The notes below the pieces were generated by a model. It was not told where the DNA came from and ran no database searches. It worked only from the letters and a program-made list of their open reading frames with translations. DNA of 24,874 nt. Source: a virus. Both the position numbers and the translations under genes were made by a program. Positions 4,670 to 21,827 of this stretch are shown piece after piece (within the stretch, counting starts at the first letter, position 1; every line of letters starts with the position of its first letter). The stretch is from positions 1 through 24,874 of the IMG/VR virus record IMGVR_UViG_3300043100_000010, one strand, 5' to 3'.

Positions 4670-5326
4670 TTAGTAGCCTATTGCGATATACCAGATATTT
4701 GCGCCGGATACCCCTGCGCCGTTGGTGGTGTTAAAGGCATTGCCCACGAAGGTGCTGTTGTTCGTGGTATTCGCCGTGATGGCCGACACACCCATGGCGG
4801 TGCCCGAGGCGAGATAGGTGCACACCGCACGAAAAAGACCATTCGGAAACGTGACCGGAAACGCACCCGAGCCGACACCGCTGGCGGCTGCCGCCACGCT
4901 GCCCCACTGGATGATAAGGCCGCCGAGCCACGAGGGCAGCGCGATATATCCGATGGCACTGATAAGCATGCTCACGCCGTTGCGCATCTTTTTCGGCGTC
5001 ATCATGGTGGTGTCATCGGCCCCCGCGTTGGCGAGCGCCTGGGTGGCAATTTTCGCCACACCGGCGAGTGTTTCAGTGGCCTGCAGGCCGCGCGTGACGG
5101 TGCCGATTGAGTTGAGCAATTGATTAAATTGCGTCTTGTCCGGTGTGACATTCGCCGCCGCGAGCACGTTGAGCACTTCCATCATGATGGCATTCAACCA
5201 CTCGGCGGGCACGATGGTGGCGGCCTGCCCGGTGGCCGGGTTGCCATCGGTGAAATACCCCGCCACACCGGGCGGCGTGGGTGCCGGTTTTGTGTTCGCC
5301 ACCGTTGCATTGTCGATCTGGAACAT
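4670..5326 (-). CDS. Short tail fibre protein
   Basis: 218 residues from ATG 5326, which has TGGAGGTTTAACAGTT upstream and lies just after the gp48 stop; the longer frame to 5410 overlaps gp48 and is not used. The N-terminal part (FTDGNPATGQAATIVPAEWL, then FNQLLNSI near residue 80) is the typical phage fibre attachment segment. The C-terminal part (IIQWGSVAAA, PVTFPNGLFRAV, NIWYIAIGY) has the form of a gp53-like fibre tip domain, where the receptor is bound. It is short for a fibre, with no long repeat shaft; a longer fibre could be encoded elsewhere. No template/variable repeat pair was seen. Confidence 0.85.
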   Translation of the reverse strand: MFQIDNATVANTKPAPTPPGVAGYFTDGNPATGQAATIVPAEWLNAIMMEVLNVLAAANVTPDKTQFNQLLNSIGTVTRGLQATETLAGVAKIATQALANAGADDTTMMTPKKMRNGVSMLISAIGYIALPSWLGGLIIQWGSVAAAASGVGSGAFPVTFPNGLFRAVCTYLASGTAMGVSAITANTTNNSTFVGNAFNTTNGAGVSGANIWYIAIGY

Positions 5327-5331
5327 AACTG

Positions 5332-5949
5332 TTAAACCTCCAGGGTGAAGCCATCGAGATAATGAAATTGCAGGATCGTGTGCGCAGGCTTGAGCGCTTC
5401 GAGTTCGCATTCGAGCACGTCATTGCCCCACGTTGAAAGTGGATCACCCGCAGCAGACTGCCCCGCCGCAAAATGCGTGATGGTGTTCTCGGGCGCATCA
5501 ACGGACCACGTAAAAAACCAGTCCTGGTTACCAAGCTGCTGCCCGCAATGGCTCTGCCCCGCACGAAACGGCGCGTAATTCGTCACGTTGATCGTGTAGC
5601 CGAGTGCCGCCGCAAAATCGATGAAAAATTGCGCGCTCTGCCCGCCGCTACTCGTGAGGCGGGCCACCACCTGCGCGCGGCGCTGCTGCATTGAGGGGTT
5701 TTCGCCCGTGCATGGATCGGGCAGGCCTAGCGTTAATTCCCACTCGGGCAGCAGTTCGCTTGTGGTAGCCGGGAAAGCATCAATGAGCAGGTTGTTGGCG
5801 CGCGAGGTCTGCCATGCATACACACCCGAGAGCCCGAGCGCGGTGGCCGCCTGTATCGCGTCCGGTTCCTTCGGCCACACGCGCCCGCGTGGCAGCAGCG
5901 CGAGCAGCGCGCGCGCAAAATCATCGGCGGTGAGATTCGGTGCGAGCAT
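5332..5949 (-). CDS. Baseplate/tail protein, Mu gp48 (YmfQ, DUF2313) family
   Basis: 205 residues; ATG 5949 with GAGGCCGCGCG upstream, 9 nt after the gp47 stop. LLALLPRGRVWP near residue 16, LLPEWELTLGLPDPC near residue 66 and QQRRAQVVARLTSSGGQS near residue 88 are signatures of the YmfQ/gp48 family, which in Mu-type tails links the gp47 baseplate wedge to the fibre. The order gp46-gp47-gp48-fibre is the same as in Mu. The C-terminal region is Cys/Trp-containing and ends with a typical ALKPAHTILQFHY segment. Confidence 0.9.
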   Translation of the reverse strand: MLAPNLTADDFARALLALLPRGRVWPKEPDAIQAATALGLSGVYAWQTSRANNLLIDAFPATTSELLPEWELTLGLPDPCTGENPSMQQRRAQVVARLTSSGGQSAQFFIDFAAALGYTINVTNYAPFRAGQSHCGQQLGNQDWFFTWSVDAPENTITHFAAGQSAAGDPLSTWGNDVLECELEALKPAHTILQFHYLDGFTLEV

Positions 5950-10769: not shown

Positions 10770-12911
10770 TCACACCCATGTGCCCGTTAGCATCGGCTCA
10801 CGCACCCGCGTGGTGGCCTCCACATTGCCGCTTGAGCGTGCCTTGGCGGTGGTGCCTGCCGGTGCGCCGCTGATGACCACCTCAACGAGCACCTTGCCGC
10901 CGCCACCGCCATCGTTGGCCGCGCGCCGGTTGCTCGCATACATCGGCTGCATGGCGGGCGGCATGGTGGTGGGTATCGGCATAACACCACCGGCACCACC
11001 TGCACCGCCCATCTGGGCGGTGACTTTCTGGATGTAGCCGCGCGTTTCGGCAGGCATCGCACCCATGCCCTGCCGCTGCACGTTGCCGCTGCCCCAGTTG
11101 TAGGCCGCGAGCGCTTGCGGCAGGTTGCCGCCGCTCTGCTTGAGCAGATCGGCATACATTTTCGCGGCCCCGGTGGCGCTCTGTGTGAGGTCATACGGGT
11201 TCGTCACGCCGTACTGCTTCGCGGTGGCGGGCATGAACTGAAAATGACCCTGCGCACCTGCCGGCGACACCATATTTTTGCCGCGTGAGCTTTCGGTGCT
11301 CCACACCGCATCGAGCAGGCCACCGGGCAACCCATATTGCTGCTCAAGGTTCGAAAAGAGCCCACCAGGCCCCGCGTTGGCCCCGCCATTGGCCCCGCCG
11401 AAGCCGGTGGGTGCCACATAGGCCGCGTCATTCGCAGCGGCACCACCGGGCGGCGCAAGCAATGGCGGCATCGCGGGCGGCGTGGCCCCTGCCGGTTGAT
11501 CGGCAGGCGCAGCGGCGGCAGGTGCACCGGCAGGCGCGGGTGCCGTGAGACTCTGCGCGATCTGCTCGTTGCTTGAGCCGCGCGCGCGCATCCACATGGC
11601 TTTAGCGAAGTCTTTGGCGGGCAGCAGTGTGGATGCGCTGAACCATTCGCCGCGCCGTACCGCATCGACGCCCTTGTCACGGTCGGTATCGGGCAGGCCT
11701 GCGGCCTTCGCCACCGCGAGCCCGCCCACGGCGGCGATACCGGCCACGCCTGCGGTGGCCGCGAAGCCTGCGAGGCCACCGCCCGCCGCACCGGCCACGC
11801 CCGCGAGCCCGCGCGCCGCTGCCGGTGCTGCCACGGTGGCGAGCTTCATGAGTGCACCGACAAGCGAGAGCACACCCGAGATAGGCCCCGCGAAGGTGAT
11901 GGCCGCGAGGCCGATCATCACGCCCTTCAGGCCGCCTATCGCGCTCACGAATTTGCCCACATCACGCGCCACGGCGGGCCAGTCGACCGACTTGATCCAC
12001 GTTGCGATCTGCTTGACAAACTCGGTCACCTGCGTGGCAATGAGTTCGCGGTTTTGCGTGACCCAATCGGATAGCCCCTTGATGAGCGGTTCGAGCACCG
12101 GAATGAGCGCGTTGCCGATGGTGTTTTTAAGGCCTTCGAGCGCCATGTCGAGCTTGGTCACGTTCTGTGCGTATTCCTGGGCATTTTTTATCTGCTCATC
12201 ACCCATCACGTTGCCCGCCTTGCCGCCCGCATTAACAAACTCTTCGATACCCTTGGCCCCTTTCTGCAGCATCGGCAATAACGCATCACTCACGCCAAAC
12301 TGCTGCAGGATTTTGCGCTGTACTGCCGTGTTGCCTTTCTGCGCCGCGATGACTTCGGCAAGCTGGCGAAGCGCGTGCATCGAATCCACGGCACCCGTTT
12401 TCGTGCGCGTGAGTGTCATGTTGAAACGGTGCATGAACTGTGCGGCCTCATTGTTCCGGCCATAGGTGGCATCCTCAATCGTGTCACCGAGTGACTTGAG
12501 GCTCGAATCCATATCGGCGGCACTCGCCCCGGCGAGGCGCGCGGCGTTGCGATAGGCCTGCAGATCACCGGCACCCACACCGAGCGCCTGCGAAGTCAGC
12601 GCGATTTCCTGCCCGAGCTTTCCCCACGAGTTAGCGAGCGCCACCACACCGGCCACGGTTGCCACACTCGTGATGGCACCCATGGCAGGTATCAGTGAGG
12701 TCACCGATTTAACGGCGCTTTGTGCGCTCGTGGCCACCTTGCCGAACGCGCTGCCTACCTTGTCAAAGCCGCTCGCGCGTGAGAAGTCCTGCACCGAGCG
12801 GCGCATGTCACGCACGGGGCTCGTGAGCTTCGCCATCTGCGCGTTGATCTTGCGCACGGTGGCGGTGGCCTTGTCGACCGCAGTGATGGTGACTGTGAAA
12901 GGTGCTGCCAT
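10770..12911 (-). CDS. Tail tape measure protein with lytic transglycosylase (SLT) domain
   Basis: 713 residues; ATG 12911 with GAGG 9 nt upstream. Residues 1-60 match tape measure N-termini (TVTITAVDKATATVRKINAQ). Residues 95-325 are helical; 330-400 are an Ala/Gly-rich hydrophobic stretch with several possible membrane segments; 455-515 are an Ala/Pro/Gly linker. Residues 517-632 are an SLT domain: the catalytic Glu is probably E540 in VWSTESSRG, followed by SPAGAQGHFQFMPATA and AAYNWGSGN. It sets tail length, and the SLT domain probably cuts peptidoglycan during DNA entry. It follows the frameshifted chaperone gene, the canonical order. Confidence 0.95.
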   Translation of the reverse strand: MAAPFTVTITAVDKATATVRKINAQMAKLTSPVRDMRRSVQDFSRASGFDKVGSAFGKVATSAQSAVKSVTSLIPAMGAITSVATVAGVVALANSWGKLGQEIALTSQALGVGAGDLQAYRNAARLAGASAADMDSSLKSLGDTIEDATYGRNNEAAQFMHRFNMTLTRTKTGAVDSMHALRQLAEVIAAQKGNTAVQRKILQQFGVSDALLPMLQKGAKGIEEFVNAGGKAGNVMGDEQIKNAQEYAQNVTKLDMALEGLKNTIGNALIPVLEPLIKGLSDWVTQNRELIATQVTEFVKQIATWIKSVDWPAVARDVGKFVSAIGGLKGVMIGLAAITFAGPISGVLSLVGALMKLATVAAPAAARGLAGVAGAAGGGLAGFAATAGVAGIAAVGGLAVAKAAGLPDTDRDKGVDAVRRGEWFSASTLLPAKDFAKAMWMRARGSSNEQIAQSLTAPAPAGAPAAAAPADQPAGATPPAMPPLLAPPGGAAANDAAYVAPTGFGGANGGANAGPGGLFSNLEQQYGLPGGLLDAVWSTESSRGKNMVSPAGAQGHFQFMPATAKQYGVTNPYDLTQSATGAAKMYADLLKQSGGNLPQALAAYNWGSGNVQRQGMGAMPAETRGYIQKVTAQMGGAGGAGGVMPIPTTMPPAMQPMYASNRRAANDGGGGGKVLVEVVISGAPAGTTAKARSSGNVEATTRVREPMLTGTWV

Positions 12912-12921
12912 GGTGATGGCC

Positions 12922-13355
12922 TCAAGGTTGAGACTGCTGCGCGGCTTCGGTTTCCGCGCGGCGCATGCGGATCATCTGTTCATGCCACCACTGCAGGCGC
13001 GAGAGCCGCAAGCCCCACGCATCGTGAGGCCCCCAATGAAAAAAACGGGTGATCTCTGCTACGGTGTCGGGCCACTCTCTTGACCATCCGGCGTAAAACC
13101 CCCCAGGTAATCGCTCGCCTCCCTCAAGTCACGTTGTGAGAGCTTTTCGGCGGCCTTGCGCGGGATGCCTGCGATAAGCTGGATGAGCGTGATGCTCACG
13201 CCCACATTCGTGCTCTCTTTGGTGGCCTTTTCGAGTTCCCCGGCCTCCGGTTCACGCAGGTGCAGTTCTGTGTATGTGATAGCCGCGTCACCGCTGCCGA
13301 TGGTCACGGGCTTGCGCAGCGGCATCACAAAATCATCGTCGTGTTGGGCGCTCAT
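12922..13355 (-). CDS. Frameshifted long form of the tail assembly chaperone (gp41 plus GpE-like extension)
   Basis: Predicted -1 ribosomal slippage product. Ribosomes starting at 13355 reach G GGG GGT (13104 down to 13098) in the correct phase for a slip and continue in the -1 frame for 58 codons to TGA 12924-12922, just before the tape measure SD. The extension (WSREWPDTVAEITRFFHWGP near its start, then LSRLQWWHEQMIRMRRAE) resembles P2 GpE-type extensions (VIFHWPPSE...LTELITWREKA), which are made only by frameshifting. An SD-like AGGGAGG sits at 13124-13118. The long form, here 144 residues, should recruit tube subunits while the chaperone coats the tape measure. No other ORF explains this stretch. 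Confidence 0.85.
13059..13355 (-). CDS. Tail assembly chaperone, Mu gp41 family (short form)
   Basis: 98 residues in the unshifted frame, ending PDGQESGPTP at TAG 13059-13061. Start: an in-frame ATG at 13364 overlaps the tube stop (ATGA), but GGAGG lies only 1 nt from it and 10 nt from ATG 13355, so 13355 (MSAQHDDD) is preferred. The body (KPVTIGSGDAAITYTELHLR, then GVSITLIQLIAGIPRKAAEK and REASDYLGGF) has the gp41/GpE+ chaperone form, ending where the slippery heptamer occurs. It binds the tape measure protein during tail assembly and is not expected in the finished tail. Confidence 0.9.
   Translation of the reverse strand: MSAQHDDDFVMPLRKPVTIGSGDAAITYTELHLREPEAGELEKATKESTNVGVSITLIQLIAGIPRKAAEKLSQRDLREASDYLGGFTPDGQESGPTP
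13098..13104 (-). promoter_or_regulatory. Slippery heptamer GGGGGGT for -1 frameshift
   Basis: The codons in the unshifted frame are CTG GGG GGT TTT, so the heptamer reads G GGG GGT, the X XXY YYZ arrangement. Slipping keeps five or six base pairs of the tRNA pairings. AGGGAGG at 13124-13118 is 13 nt upstream, similar to the SD-like stimulator of E. coli dnaX. No convincing downstream stem-loop was found by eye. Confidence 0.85.
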
Positions 13356-13360
13356 TTTTC

Positions 13361-13729
13361 TCATGCCTCCGTGACGCTGAAGCCTTCCCAGTGCACCTCA
13401 ACGGTGGCATCCGTTGAATGCACGGTCTGATCTTCAATCGTCCACATGTTTCGCCCGATCACCGTTTTGCCGTTGGCGAGTTCGGTGACGATGGTCACGT
13501 TGCGCATCGCATTGAAGTCGGCCACCGAGAGGCCGCCCGCATCACGCAGCGTGGCATTGATGGCACCCGGGCGCGGGTGTTCGCTGTAGCCGTGCACCCC
13601 GTCCATGCCCGAGAGGGATTCACGCGTATAGCTCGAAGGGTTGTATTCAAAATCCCCCACGAGCATGTAATTGCGCCCATCCACGGTGATGTTTGCCGTG
13701 CCCGCGAGCCGGTTTGTGTAGTCAGCCAT
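13361..13729 (-). CDS. Tail tube protein, Mu gpM family
   Basis: 122 residues; ATG 13729 with TTGGAGCGCTGAA upstream. RLAGTANITVDGRNYMLVGD and ESLSGMDGVHGYSEHPRPGA at about 7-58 and WEGFSVTEA at the end are typical of the Mu-type tube protein, with the usual length of about 120 residues. It follows the sheath gene, as in Mu. A hairpin with a T tract on this strand sits directly ahead of its SD. The product is made in large amounts, so that hairpin is likely to matter for its expression. Confidence 0.94.
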   Translation of the reverse strand: MADYTNRLAGTANITVDGRNYMLVGDFEYNPSSYTRESLSGMDGVHGYSEHPRPGAINATLRDAGGLSVADFNAMRNVTIVTELANGKTVIGRNMWTIEDQTVHSTDATVEVHWEGFSVTEA

Positions 13730-15286: not shown

Positions 15287-15552
15287 TGCTTGTCTCCGCT
15301 ATCCTGCGTGGCACTCGCACCCGTCACGGGTGCACTCTTTGCGGCGGGCTTCGCAGTGCTCTGCGTGCGCTGCCCCTGATCGGGTGGCGGCTCGGGCGGC
15401 GGTGTGTCGTCCTTCGTCACGTCACCGTCACGCAAACGACGACGCCAGTAGATATCGTTCGGGTCCACCTGCATGCCCTTGTCCGGGTCGACATACTGGC
15501 CGGTAACCGGGTCGCGAATCATCTTTCCCTGTGCGGGTTTCACGGTAATCAT
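15283..15552 (-). CDS. DUF2635 protein (Mu gp38 position)
   Basis: 89 residues; ATG 15552 (ATGA overlap), with GAGGAAACCAA. The N-terminal half (MITVKPAQGKMIRDPVTGQY, then DPNDIYWRRRLRDGDV) is the DUF2635 signature of Mu-like tail clusters, always placed just before the sheath gene. The C-terminal half is a Pro/Gln/Lys tail without structure. Its role is unknown; the position suggests a tail assembly factor. Confidence 0.9.
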   Translation of the reverse strand: MITVKPAQGKMIRDPVTGQYVDPDKGMQVDPNDIYWRRRLRDGDVTKDDTPPPEPPPDQGQRTQSTAKPAAKSAPVTGASATQDSGDKQ

Positions 15553-20175: not shown

Positions 20176-21827
20176 CAGGTGGCCTCCGGTTTCTGCTGCA
20201 CCTGCTGCGCGTTCTGCACACCGGGTGTCTGCATGCCTGCCCATGTCGGCACCGGAATGCCGCGCTTTTTGAAGGCTTCGATTTCGCGCGCGCGCTGATC
20301 GAGCACTTCCTCATAATCGAGCCCCTGCTCGGCACATTCGGCTTCGAGTGTCGATAGGCCCGCATCCATGCCGAGCACCGCGCCCTGCTTTTCGGCGACC
20401 GGATCAATCCACCCCTTGCCTGGGCCGATCCACTCGCAGCGCGCATAAGCGGCGCGGCACTCATAGAACGGCGGCGCACCAGGCGGCAGCGGCAGCGCAT
20501 CCACCTCAAACGCCTCTTCGAGCCATGCGCAAAAGATCGGGTGCGCGAAGCCCGCGGCGAATTCGTGGCGGCGGCGGGTGAGCGTTTTCCACGCTTCGAG
20601 CAGCGCGGCGCGCGCGCTCGAATAGTTCACATCGCTCCAATCCTGTGAGAGCTGTTGCGCACTGATGCCGAGCGCCGATGCGCCGTTGCGCAACACCGCG
20701 CTCTCAAACTCCTTGAAATTTGAATTGGGCCGCGCGGCGTTGACGGTGTTGATCTTTTCACCGGGAAACAGGATCGGCATGCGCGCATCACCGAGCATGA
20801 TGCGGCGGTCGCAATGGAACTGCGTGCGCATGTTCTGGTAGTTCGAGAGTTCACCGCCGCCATCGTCACCGATGCCTTCCTCAACAAACTGATGGTCGAA
20901 CGGGCTTTCGATGTACGCGCCGAAAATCGCGTTGATGATTGAGGCATCGAGTTCGGTGCTGTCGTACTTCACGAGCATGCGGAAACGCTGCAGGATCGGC
21001 GTAAAGACACCGGCACCACCGCGATGCTGCCCGCCGCGCTCGTGCTCGAAGTCATGCACTACCACGGGCCGCCCCCACCATGTTTCACGCGGTACGCGCT
21101 CCCACGAGAGCGAATCAACGGCGTTGTACCAGTCGCCGGCATGTGCGCGGCGAATCCAGTAAGCCACCGCCGCGCCGTTGTCATCGATCTCCACACCCCC
21201 GCGCATGCTGCGTTGGTCCCACTGGTTATAGGGATTGGAGAGCCGGTCGGGGTCGATCACCTGCACGGCGGTGGCATAGCGCGCGCGGCCCGGTCCCACG
21301 CGCTCGGGCATCCACTGCGCCATGCCGAGCGCTTCACCGTCCACCAGCTTGTGCCGGAATGCGAGCCGGTAGAGTTGCGAGAGCGTGAGCGAGCGCGCGG
21401 TGTCCGCATAGCGCCCCGGATCGTTGGCCCACATGCGATAGTGAGCCTCCACCGTGCTGCCGAACTCATCGGCCCAATCCGGGTTGAAGCCTTCGTTGCC
21501 GGTGATCGCGCGCAGGGCGCGGTAATCCGGCTTCACAAGTGGCCGCAGGTTCGCGCCGACCGCGTTATCCAGGATGCGCGTGACGGCACCGTTGGCCCAT
21601 CCATCGTTGCGCACGAGATCGCGCACCCGCGACACGATGCGGTCACGAAACGTGAGATCGGTGTCAGCGCTGCCGAGATAGGGCAACCACGTTGCCATGT
21701 GCGCGCCGTATATGTCGGCGGCGTCATACGGCAGCACGTTGCCCCCCGCGAGCGCCTTGACCTTCGCGGCAGGGCTCACGCTCATCGGCTTGCCCGCTGC
21801 ATCGAGTATCTGCACTTCGTTTGCCAT
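20175..21827 (-). CDS. Portal protein, lambda gpB family
   Basis: 550 residues from ATG 21827, 5 nt after the gpW stop, with GGTGAG. ATWLPYLGSADTDLTFRDRI, then RVRDLVRNDGWANGAVTRIL and DNAVGANLRP (about 45-97) are the classic N-terminal portal signature; NGAAVAYWIRRAHAGDWYN near residue 220, FGAYIESPF near residue 310, and a YSSARAALLEAWKTLTRRRH segment complete the match. The ring of 12 forms the DNA entry channel. It ends with a Gln-rich tail (NAQQVQQKPEAT). Length is near that of lambda B (533). Confidence 0.95.
   Translation of the reverse strand: MANEVQILDAAGKPMSVSPAAKVKALAGGNVLPYDAADIYGAHMATWLPYLGSADTDLTFRDRIVSRVRDLVRNDGWANGAVTRILDNAVGANLRPLVKPDYRALRAITGNEGFNPDWADEFGSTVEAHYRMWANDPGRYADTARSLTLSQLYRLAFRHKLVDGEALGMAQWMPERVGPGRARYATAVQVIDPDRLSNPYNQWDQRSMRGGVEIDDNGAAVAYWIRRAHAGDWYNAVDSLSWERVPRETWWGRPVVVHDFEHERGGQHRGGAGVFTPILQRFRMLVKYDSTELDASIINAIFGAYIESPFDHQFVEEGIGDDGGGELSNYQNMRTQFHCDRRIMLGDARMPILFPGEKINTVNAARPNSNFKEFESAVLRNGASALGISAQQLSQDWSDVNYSSARAALLEAWKTLTRRRHEFAAGFAHPIFCAWLEEAFEVDALPLPPGAPPFYECRAAYARCEWIGPGKGWIDPVAEKQGAVLGMDAGLSTLEAECAEQGLDYEEVLDQRAREIEAFKKRGIPVPTWAGMQTPGVQNAQQVQQKPEAT

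Follow-up and report, generated by a model that had tools for sequence, protein, structure and literature searches.

Frameshifting in tail assembly chaperone genes has long been known in lambda, P2 and, following Xu et al. 2004, many other phages (PMC5009743, PMC3091744). P2 produces gpE and E+E′ at the heptamer T_TTT_TTG, and P2 and its Burkholderia homologues KS5, KS14 and KL3 (PMC3091744) have the chaperone gene in the same position between the tube and tape measure genes as in the DNA studied here, with a −1 shift and a GpE-like extension. In lambda, a short chaperone, gpG, is accompanied by a minor −1 extended form, gpGT, and the system can be likened to ours in its logic, although its heptamer, G_GGA_AAG, differs. 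For Burkholderia phage PhiE067 (KT803877), the same heptamer as favored below has been proposed in the tape measure chaperone ORF16/16.1, whose proteins are described as longer, with the shift placed after G127 and a 204-aa long form (PMC7266877). Mu is the exception in shifting by −2 (PMC5009743, PMC2628397); gp41-41.5 of Mu and D108 lie in a tail module homologous to that studied here (sheath, tube, chaperone, tape measure and DNA circulation protein N), and the D108 extension is in the +1/−2 frame. The D108 record lists ORF 41.5 (5273-5419) as a hypothetical protein of its own; it is probably a Mu-type +1/−2 chaperone extension.

We analysed a 24,874-nt viral DNA (IMG/VR record IMGVR_UViG_3300043100_000010, hereafter the window), for which a −1 frameshift at GGGGGGT had been predicted in the tail chaperone gene and compared with frameshifting at the same place in lambda, P2 and Mu. 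The comparison is inexact for Mu, since the window extension lies in the −1 frame and is not of the Mu type. As judged from comparative sequence evidence, the window very probably carries a −1 programmed frameshift that is conserved, functional and of a familiar kind, and a longer second tail assembly chaperone is very probably made by a one-base backward slip.

The tail assembly chaperone gene and its surroundings

The 0-frame protein matched PF10109 Phage_TAC_7 at 46 bits (E 5.5e-12, cut-off 25) and the phrog_166 tail protein with an E of 3e-11, and a search of NCBIfam gave no match. Its gene starts either at the ATG at 13364, where it overlaps the stop codon of the tail tube gene, or at that at 13355, and its translation ends in SDYLGGFTPDGQESGPTP before the stop codon. 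The gene sits between the tail tube and tape measure genes (Table 1), and the wider neighbourhood encodes a sheath, a DNA circulation protein N and Mu gp44/gp45-like baseplate proteins, thus representing a contractile-tail module of the Mu/P2 type. By its PF10109 match, the window protein belongs with the tail assembly chaperones of the Mu gp41/P2 E type; it resembles its counterpart in the P2-like KS14 only marginally in sequence (36% identity, E 0.09). A lytic transglycosylase (SLT) domain is present at the C-terminal end of the tape measure protein.

Table 1. Features of the chaperone locus in the window
Feature	Coordinates	Strand	Basis
Tail tube protein, presumed partner of the extension	13361..13729	−	PF10618, E 1e-38
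Tail assembly chaperone, short (0-frame) form, 101 aa	13059..13364	−	PF10109 Phage_TAC_7 and phrog_166
SD-like AGGGAGG, likely upstream stimulator	13118..13124	−	GGAGG in 34/34 Glu-bearing relatives
G_GGG_GGT, originally predicted heptamer, minor or no role likely	13098..13104	−	window and L001 only, among 76
G_GGT_TTT (GGGTTTT), most likely slip site	13095..13101	−	55/76 distinct relatives and codon bias tests
−1 frame extension, GpE-like helical domain	12922..13095	−	conserved in relatives; Phage_P2_GpE, phrog_10636, AF2
Tape measure protein, presumed chaperone client	10770..12911	−	phrog_2013, phrog_2276, PF01464

Two overlapping heptamers at the probable slip site

Direct reading of the minus strand gave the context ...TAC CTG GGG GGT TTT ACG..., confirming that GGGGGGT is in the correct slip phase and that AGGGAGG lies 13 nt upstream of it. 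The G run continues as GGGGGGTTTT (13104-13095, minus strand), which occurs as a single copy in the window, and thus a second in-phase canonical heptamer, G_GGT_TTT, overlaps G_GGG_GGT. Slippage at either heptamer would yield the identical ...YLGG-F-YAGWSREW... product, so that the product cannot tell which is used. Across the minus-strand genes surveyed in the window, in-phase X_XXY_YYZ patterns were found at just 14 of 5890 codon positions, two of them at the chaperone site. Other in-phase heptamers of the window (GGGAAAG at 12624 and 15529, GGGGGGC at 21747) were set aside as probable chance occurrences, their −1 frames running for only 5-31 codons. GGGAAAG at 12624 and 15529 (minus strand) is a lambda-type heptamer located in the tape measure and DUF2635 genes, and that at 15529 was not retained in nine phage homologues.

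By scanning viral contigs and bacterial genomes, we collected 76 loci with a distinct sequence at the site, the window included; three further loci (L059, L070 and L100) escaped the alignment motif and stand outside the 76, and by eye they agree with the same picture. G_GGT_TTT is kept in slip phase and against codon bias in 55 of the 76, with codons such as CTC GGG GGT TTT ACC, CTC GAG GGT TTT ACC and CTC GCG GGT TTT ACC. Fourteen loci instead have the P2 heptamer T_TTT_TTG (13) or T_TTT_TTC (1) two codons upstream, none of them carrying both sites; compared with P2, the window thus has its site two codons further downstream, together with an SD-like element. The remaining seven loci have T_TTT alone (L033, L037, L046, L075, L080, L081 and L083); L075 was rejected as a canonical C_CTT_TTT, having CCT and not CCC, and was grouped with the T_TTT loci. 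A tree with many unresolved forks, in which L075 was labelled apart, shows about seven changes between site types.

Each part of G_GGT_TTT recurs beyond the expectation from the codon usage of the loci themselves, namely that G precedes GGT TTT in 55/55 loci versus 20.4 expected (38/38 versus 13.5 among representatives of clusters), GGT accounts for 55 of the 57 Gly codons at the site versus 12.8 (38/39 versus 8.6), and TTT all 62 Phe codons without an upstream T6 versus 18.7 (44/44 versus 13.6), the relatives not being independent, so that these expected counts overstate the significance and are guides rather than exact probabilities. In the −1 frame, the T of GGT and the TTT contribute to codons for Phe and Tyr, and their conservation may be partly coding; the leading G, supplied by five different codons (GGG, GCG, GAG, TCG and CAG), is free of −1 coding constraint if the slip occurs at G_GGT_TTT.

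All 64 heptamers were assayed in E. coli by Sharma et al. 2014 (PMC4066793). Among them, G_GG.G_GG.U without a stimulator gave the lowest frameshifting, 0.018%; R_RR.U_UU.Y heptamers, including G_GG.U_UU.U, were shifty despite their mixed composition, and U_UU.U tetramers needed a strong stimulator (PMC4066793). These rates, which come from E. coli reporters, favor G_GGT_TTT in the window.

A shift mainly at G_GGG_GGT, giving the same ..YLGG-FYAGW.. fusion, would profit from perfect P- and A-site re-pairing on the G-run codons and from the SD-like element 13 nt upstream, and the heptamer is shared by the window and L001. It is, however, broken (C_GGG_GGT, G_GCG_GGT, C_GAG_GGT and similar) in the 74 other loci, which have the same arrangement, and it is the weakest heptamer in E. 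coli (PMC4066793). GGGGGGT was rejected as the main slip site on its poor conservation and these published rates, and we regard such a shift as unlikely. The alignment of related genomes, suggested along with the original prediction as a check, upheld the −1 frame peptide and spoke against the heptamer, and GGGTTTT, three bases 3′ of GGGGGGT, is most likely the slip point. Nor is the site novel, as 5′-GGGTTTT-3′ had been proposed before for PhiE067 (PMC7266877); in the literature collection searched, no further phage paper with a GGGTTTT frameshift was found.

A conserved extension in the −1 frame

Past the slip site, the −1 frame runs for 58 codons (57 from TAC plus the TGA stop at 12924-12922), the TGA lying 10 nt ahead of the tape measure ATG at 12911, and the −1 ORF of the window has no ATG, GTG or TTG ahead of the conserved motif, all of which bears out the original description. 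The predicted long form has 147 aa, comprising short-form residues 1-89 followed by FYAGW...QSQP. The extension is present in every relative that reaches beyond the site. In L002, homology stops a few codons past the slip site, at ~2240, and unrelated sequence follows, which may reflect an insertion or chimerism of this contig.

Across 54 aligned representatives, the entropy of the extension peaks at the third −1 codon position (0.86/0.68/1.37), and Ala, Trp, Pro and Trp residues are invariant in a 37-member alignment; therefore, the extension evolves as a protein in the −1 frame. Pfam PF06528 Phage_P2_GpE was matched by 13 of the 37 aligned members (best E 8.7e-6), while the window extension itself reached 15.3-15.4 bits, under the curated cut-off of 23. 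The predicted GpE-like character is thus borne by the relatives, on whose matches the family assignment rests, and the extension is likely homologous to GpE. phrog_10636, a family of short stand-alone sequences without an assigned function, was matched by 36/37 members. AlphaFold2 predicted a small confident helical domain (pLDDT 84, pTM 0.63), and fold searches with the extension gave no significant match.

The stand-alone sequences of phrog_10636, together with AGGGAGG upstream, would suit an extension made as a separate protein through internal or re-initiation and without a frameshift. This reading is very improbable, as in 67 of 75 relatives the stretch from the preceding −1 stop to the conserved motif contains no ATG, GTG or TTG, and of the other eight only one shows an SD-like match by a start; besides, it leaves the conservation of the slip phase unexplained, and the P2 homologue is made by −1 frameshift, KS14 being annotated likewise by homology. 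Transcriptional slippage on the G6T4 run, by which mixed mRNAs would encode the fusion, could draw on the homopolymer pair GGGGGGTTTT of the window, yet can be practically dismissed, since many relatives keep the arrangement with G and T runs that are interrupted by other bases and too short for polymerase slippage of the ordinary sort (e.g. GAG GGT TTT ACC). The reading frames, the absent starts and the fact that site, extension and SD-like element are conserved are direct observations, and the conserved site, the extension and the absent starts support the −1 frameshifting predicted for the tail chaperone gene.

The SD-like element and downstream structure

In E. coli dnaX, an upstream SD-like AGGGAG serves as a stimulator for the A_AAA_AAG heptamer, roughly 10 nt away, together with a downstream hairpin. 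The window shares the SD-like element, which is conserved, and lacks the hairpin; its spacing, 16 nt to G_GGT_TTT, is longer than that in dnaX, and the 13 nt to G_GGG_GGT would fit better. The SD-like element of the original prediction is supported.

GGAGG is found in 34/34 G_GGT_TTT loci with Glu at the SD-like position. In these loci, the codon before Glu (AGG, ACG, AAG, CGG, GGG, GCG or CAG) always ends in G, versus 18.4 expected, and the Glu codon is GAG in all 34, versus 18.5 expected. This provides good evidence, at the sequence level, that the element is under selection beyond coding need, and a stimulation of frameshifting is predicted.

No downstream stimulatory hairpin was detected in the window, where the fold is weaker than that of nearly all synonymous recodings (z +2.2), in agreement with the original prediction. 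In SD-less Pseudomonas-type relatives, a downstream stem CTGGYCAG...CTGGCCAG starts 7 nt past the site. Such palindromic CTGGYCAG/CTGGCCAG arms were seen in L022, L024, L037, L038, L045 and others, mostly SD-less. Within the G_GGT_TTT group, the mean MFE was −13.1 kcal/mol for loci with the SD-like element versus −17.6 kcal/mol for those without, and with the T_TTT loci included the fold strengths differed at a Mann-Whitney p of 6e-5. The tree, however, provides only one independent SD/stem pair, and the stem arms coincide with the conserved −1 frame Trp-Pro codons, making selection for the structure uncertain; an SD/stem exchange is therefore suggestive only. Tentatively, one chaperone family may have kept the slip position fixed while swapping the stimulator, with the SD-like element in the Burkholderiales-type branch to which the window belongs and the stem in Pseudomonas-type relatives, along with a switch between G_GGT_TTT and T_TTT_TTG at a distance of two codons. 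If the stimulator exchange is true, these loci would form a natural series for how phages retune a frameshift ratio.

Proposed mechanism

We propose that most ribosomes would stay in the 0-frame and produce the 101-residue short form, while a minority would be paused by pairing of AGGGAGG with the anti-SD, with tRNA-Gly on GGU and tRNA-Phe on UUU. Both tRNAs would then slip together, from G_GGU_UUU to GGG UUU, and reading would go on in the −1 frame to give the 147-residue long form, which would end in a helical GpE-like domain. If lambda gpG/gpGT is taken as a guide, both forms may cover the tape measure protein and bring in the tail tube protein. We infer slippage itself, its rate and the assembly role of the two forms from sequence comparison, and assign this whole explanation, namely a Mu/P2-type chaperone with a −1 slip at G_GGT_TTT, an SD-like pause and two forms, a probability of about 0.86. 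The placement at GGGTTTT names the bases to mutate.

Annotation of the predicted long form

Although tail assembly is set up by the chaperone in its two forms, gene callers generally report the short form alone, as the original prediction expected for this gene. Short forms only are annotated in the records of eight phages, i.e. Serratia BZS1, Citrobacter phiNP, Burkholderia BgVeeders33, Pseudomonas DVM-2008, Yersinia YeP1, Bordetella PBb001, SfV and Pantoea AH07, which leave a gap of 118-141 nt to the tape measure gene; in all eight, the −1 frame past a T_TTT_TTN site reaches the tape measure start. The same holds for the annotation of Pseudomonas PG1, in which T_TTT_TTG is present and the −1 frame is less clear. 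Among the phage records examined, a joined gene is annotated in KS14 only. The GGGTTTT placement is usable as a rule by which many proteobacterial myovirus prophages can be annotated.

The site of BgVeeders33 (chaperone 4908-5198) is GGGTTTTTTC, read as GCG GGT TTT TTC, and contains both G_GGT_TTT and T_TTT_TTC, a double heptamer that is plausibly an intermediate between the two site types.
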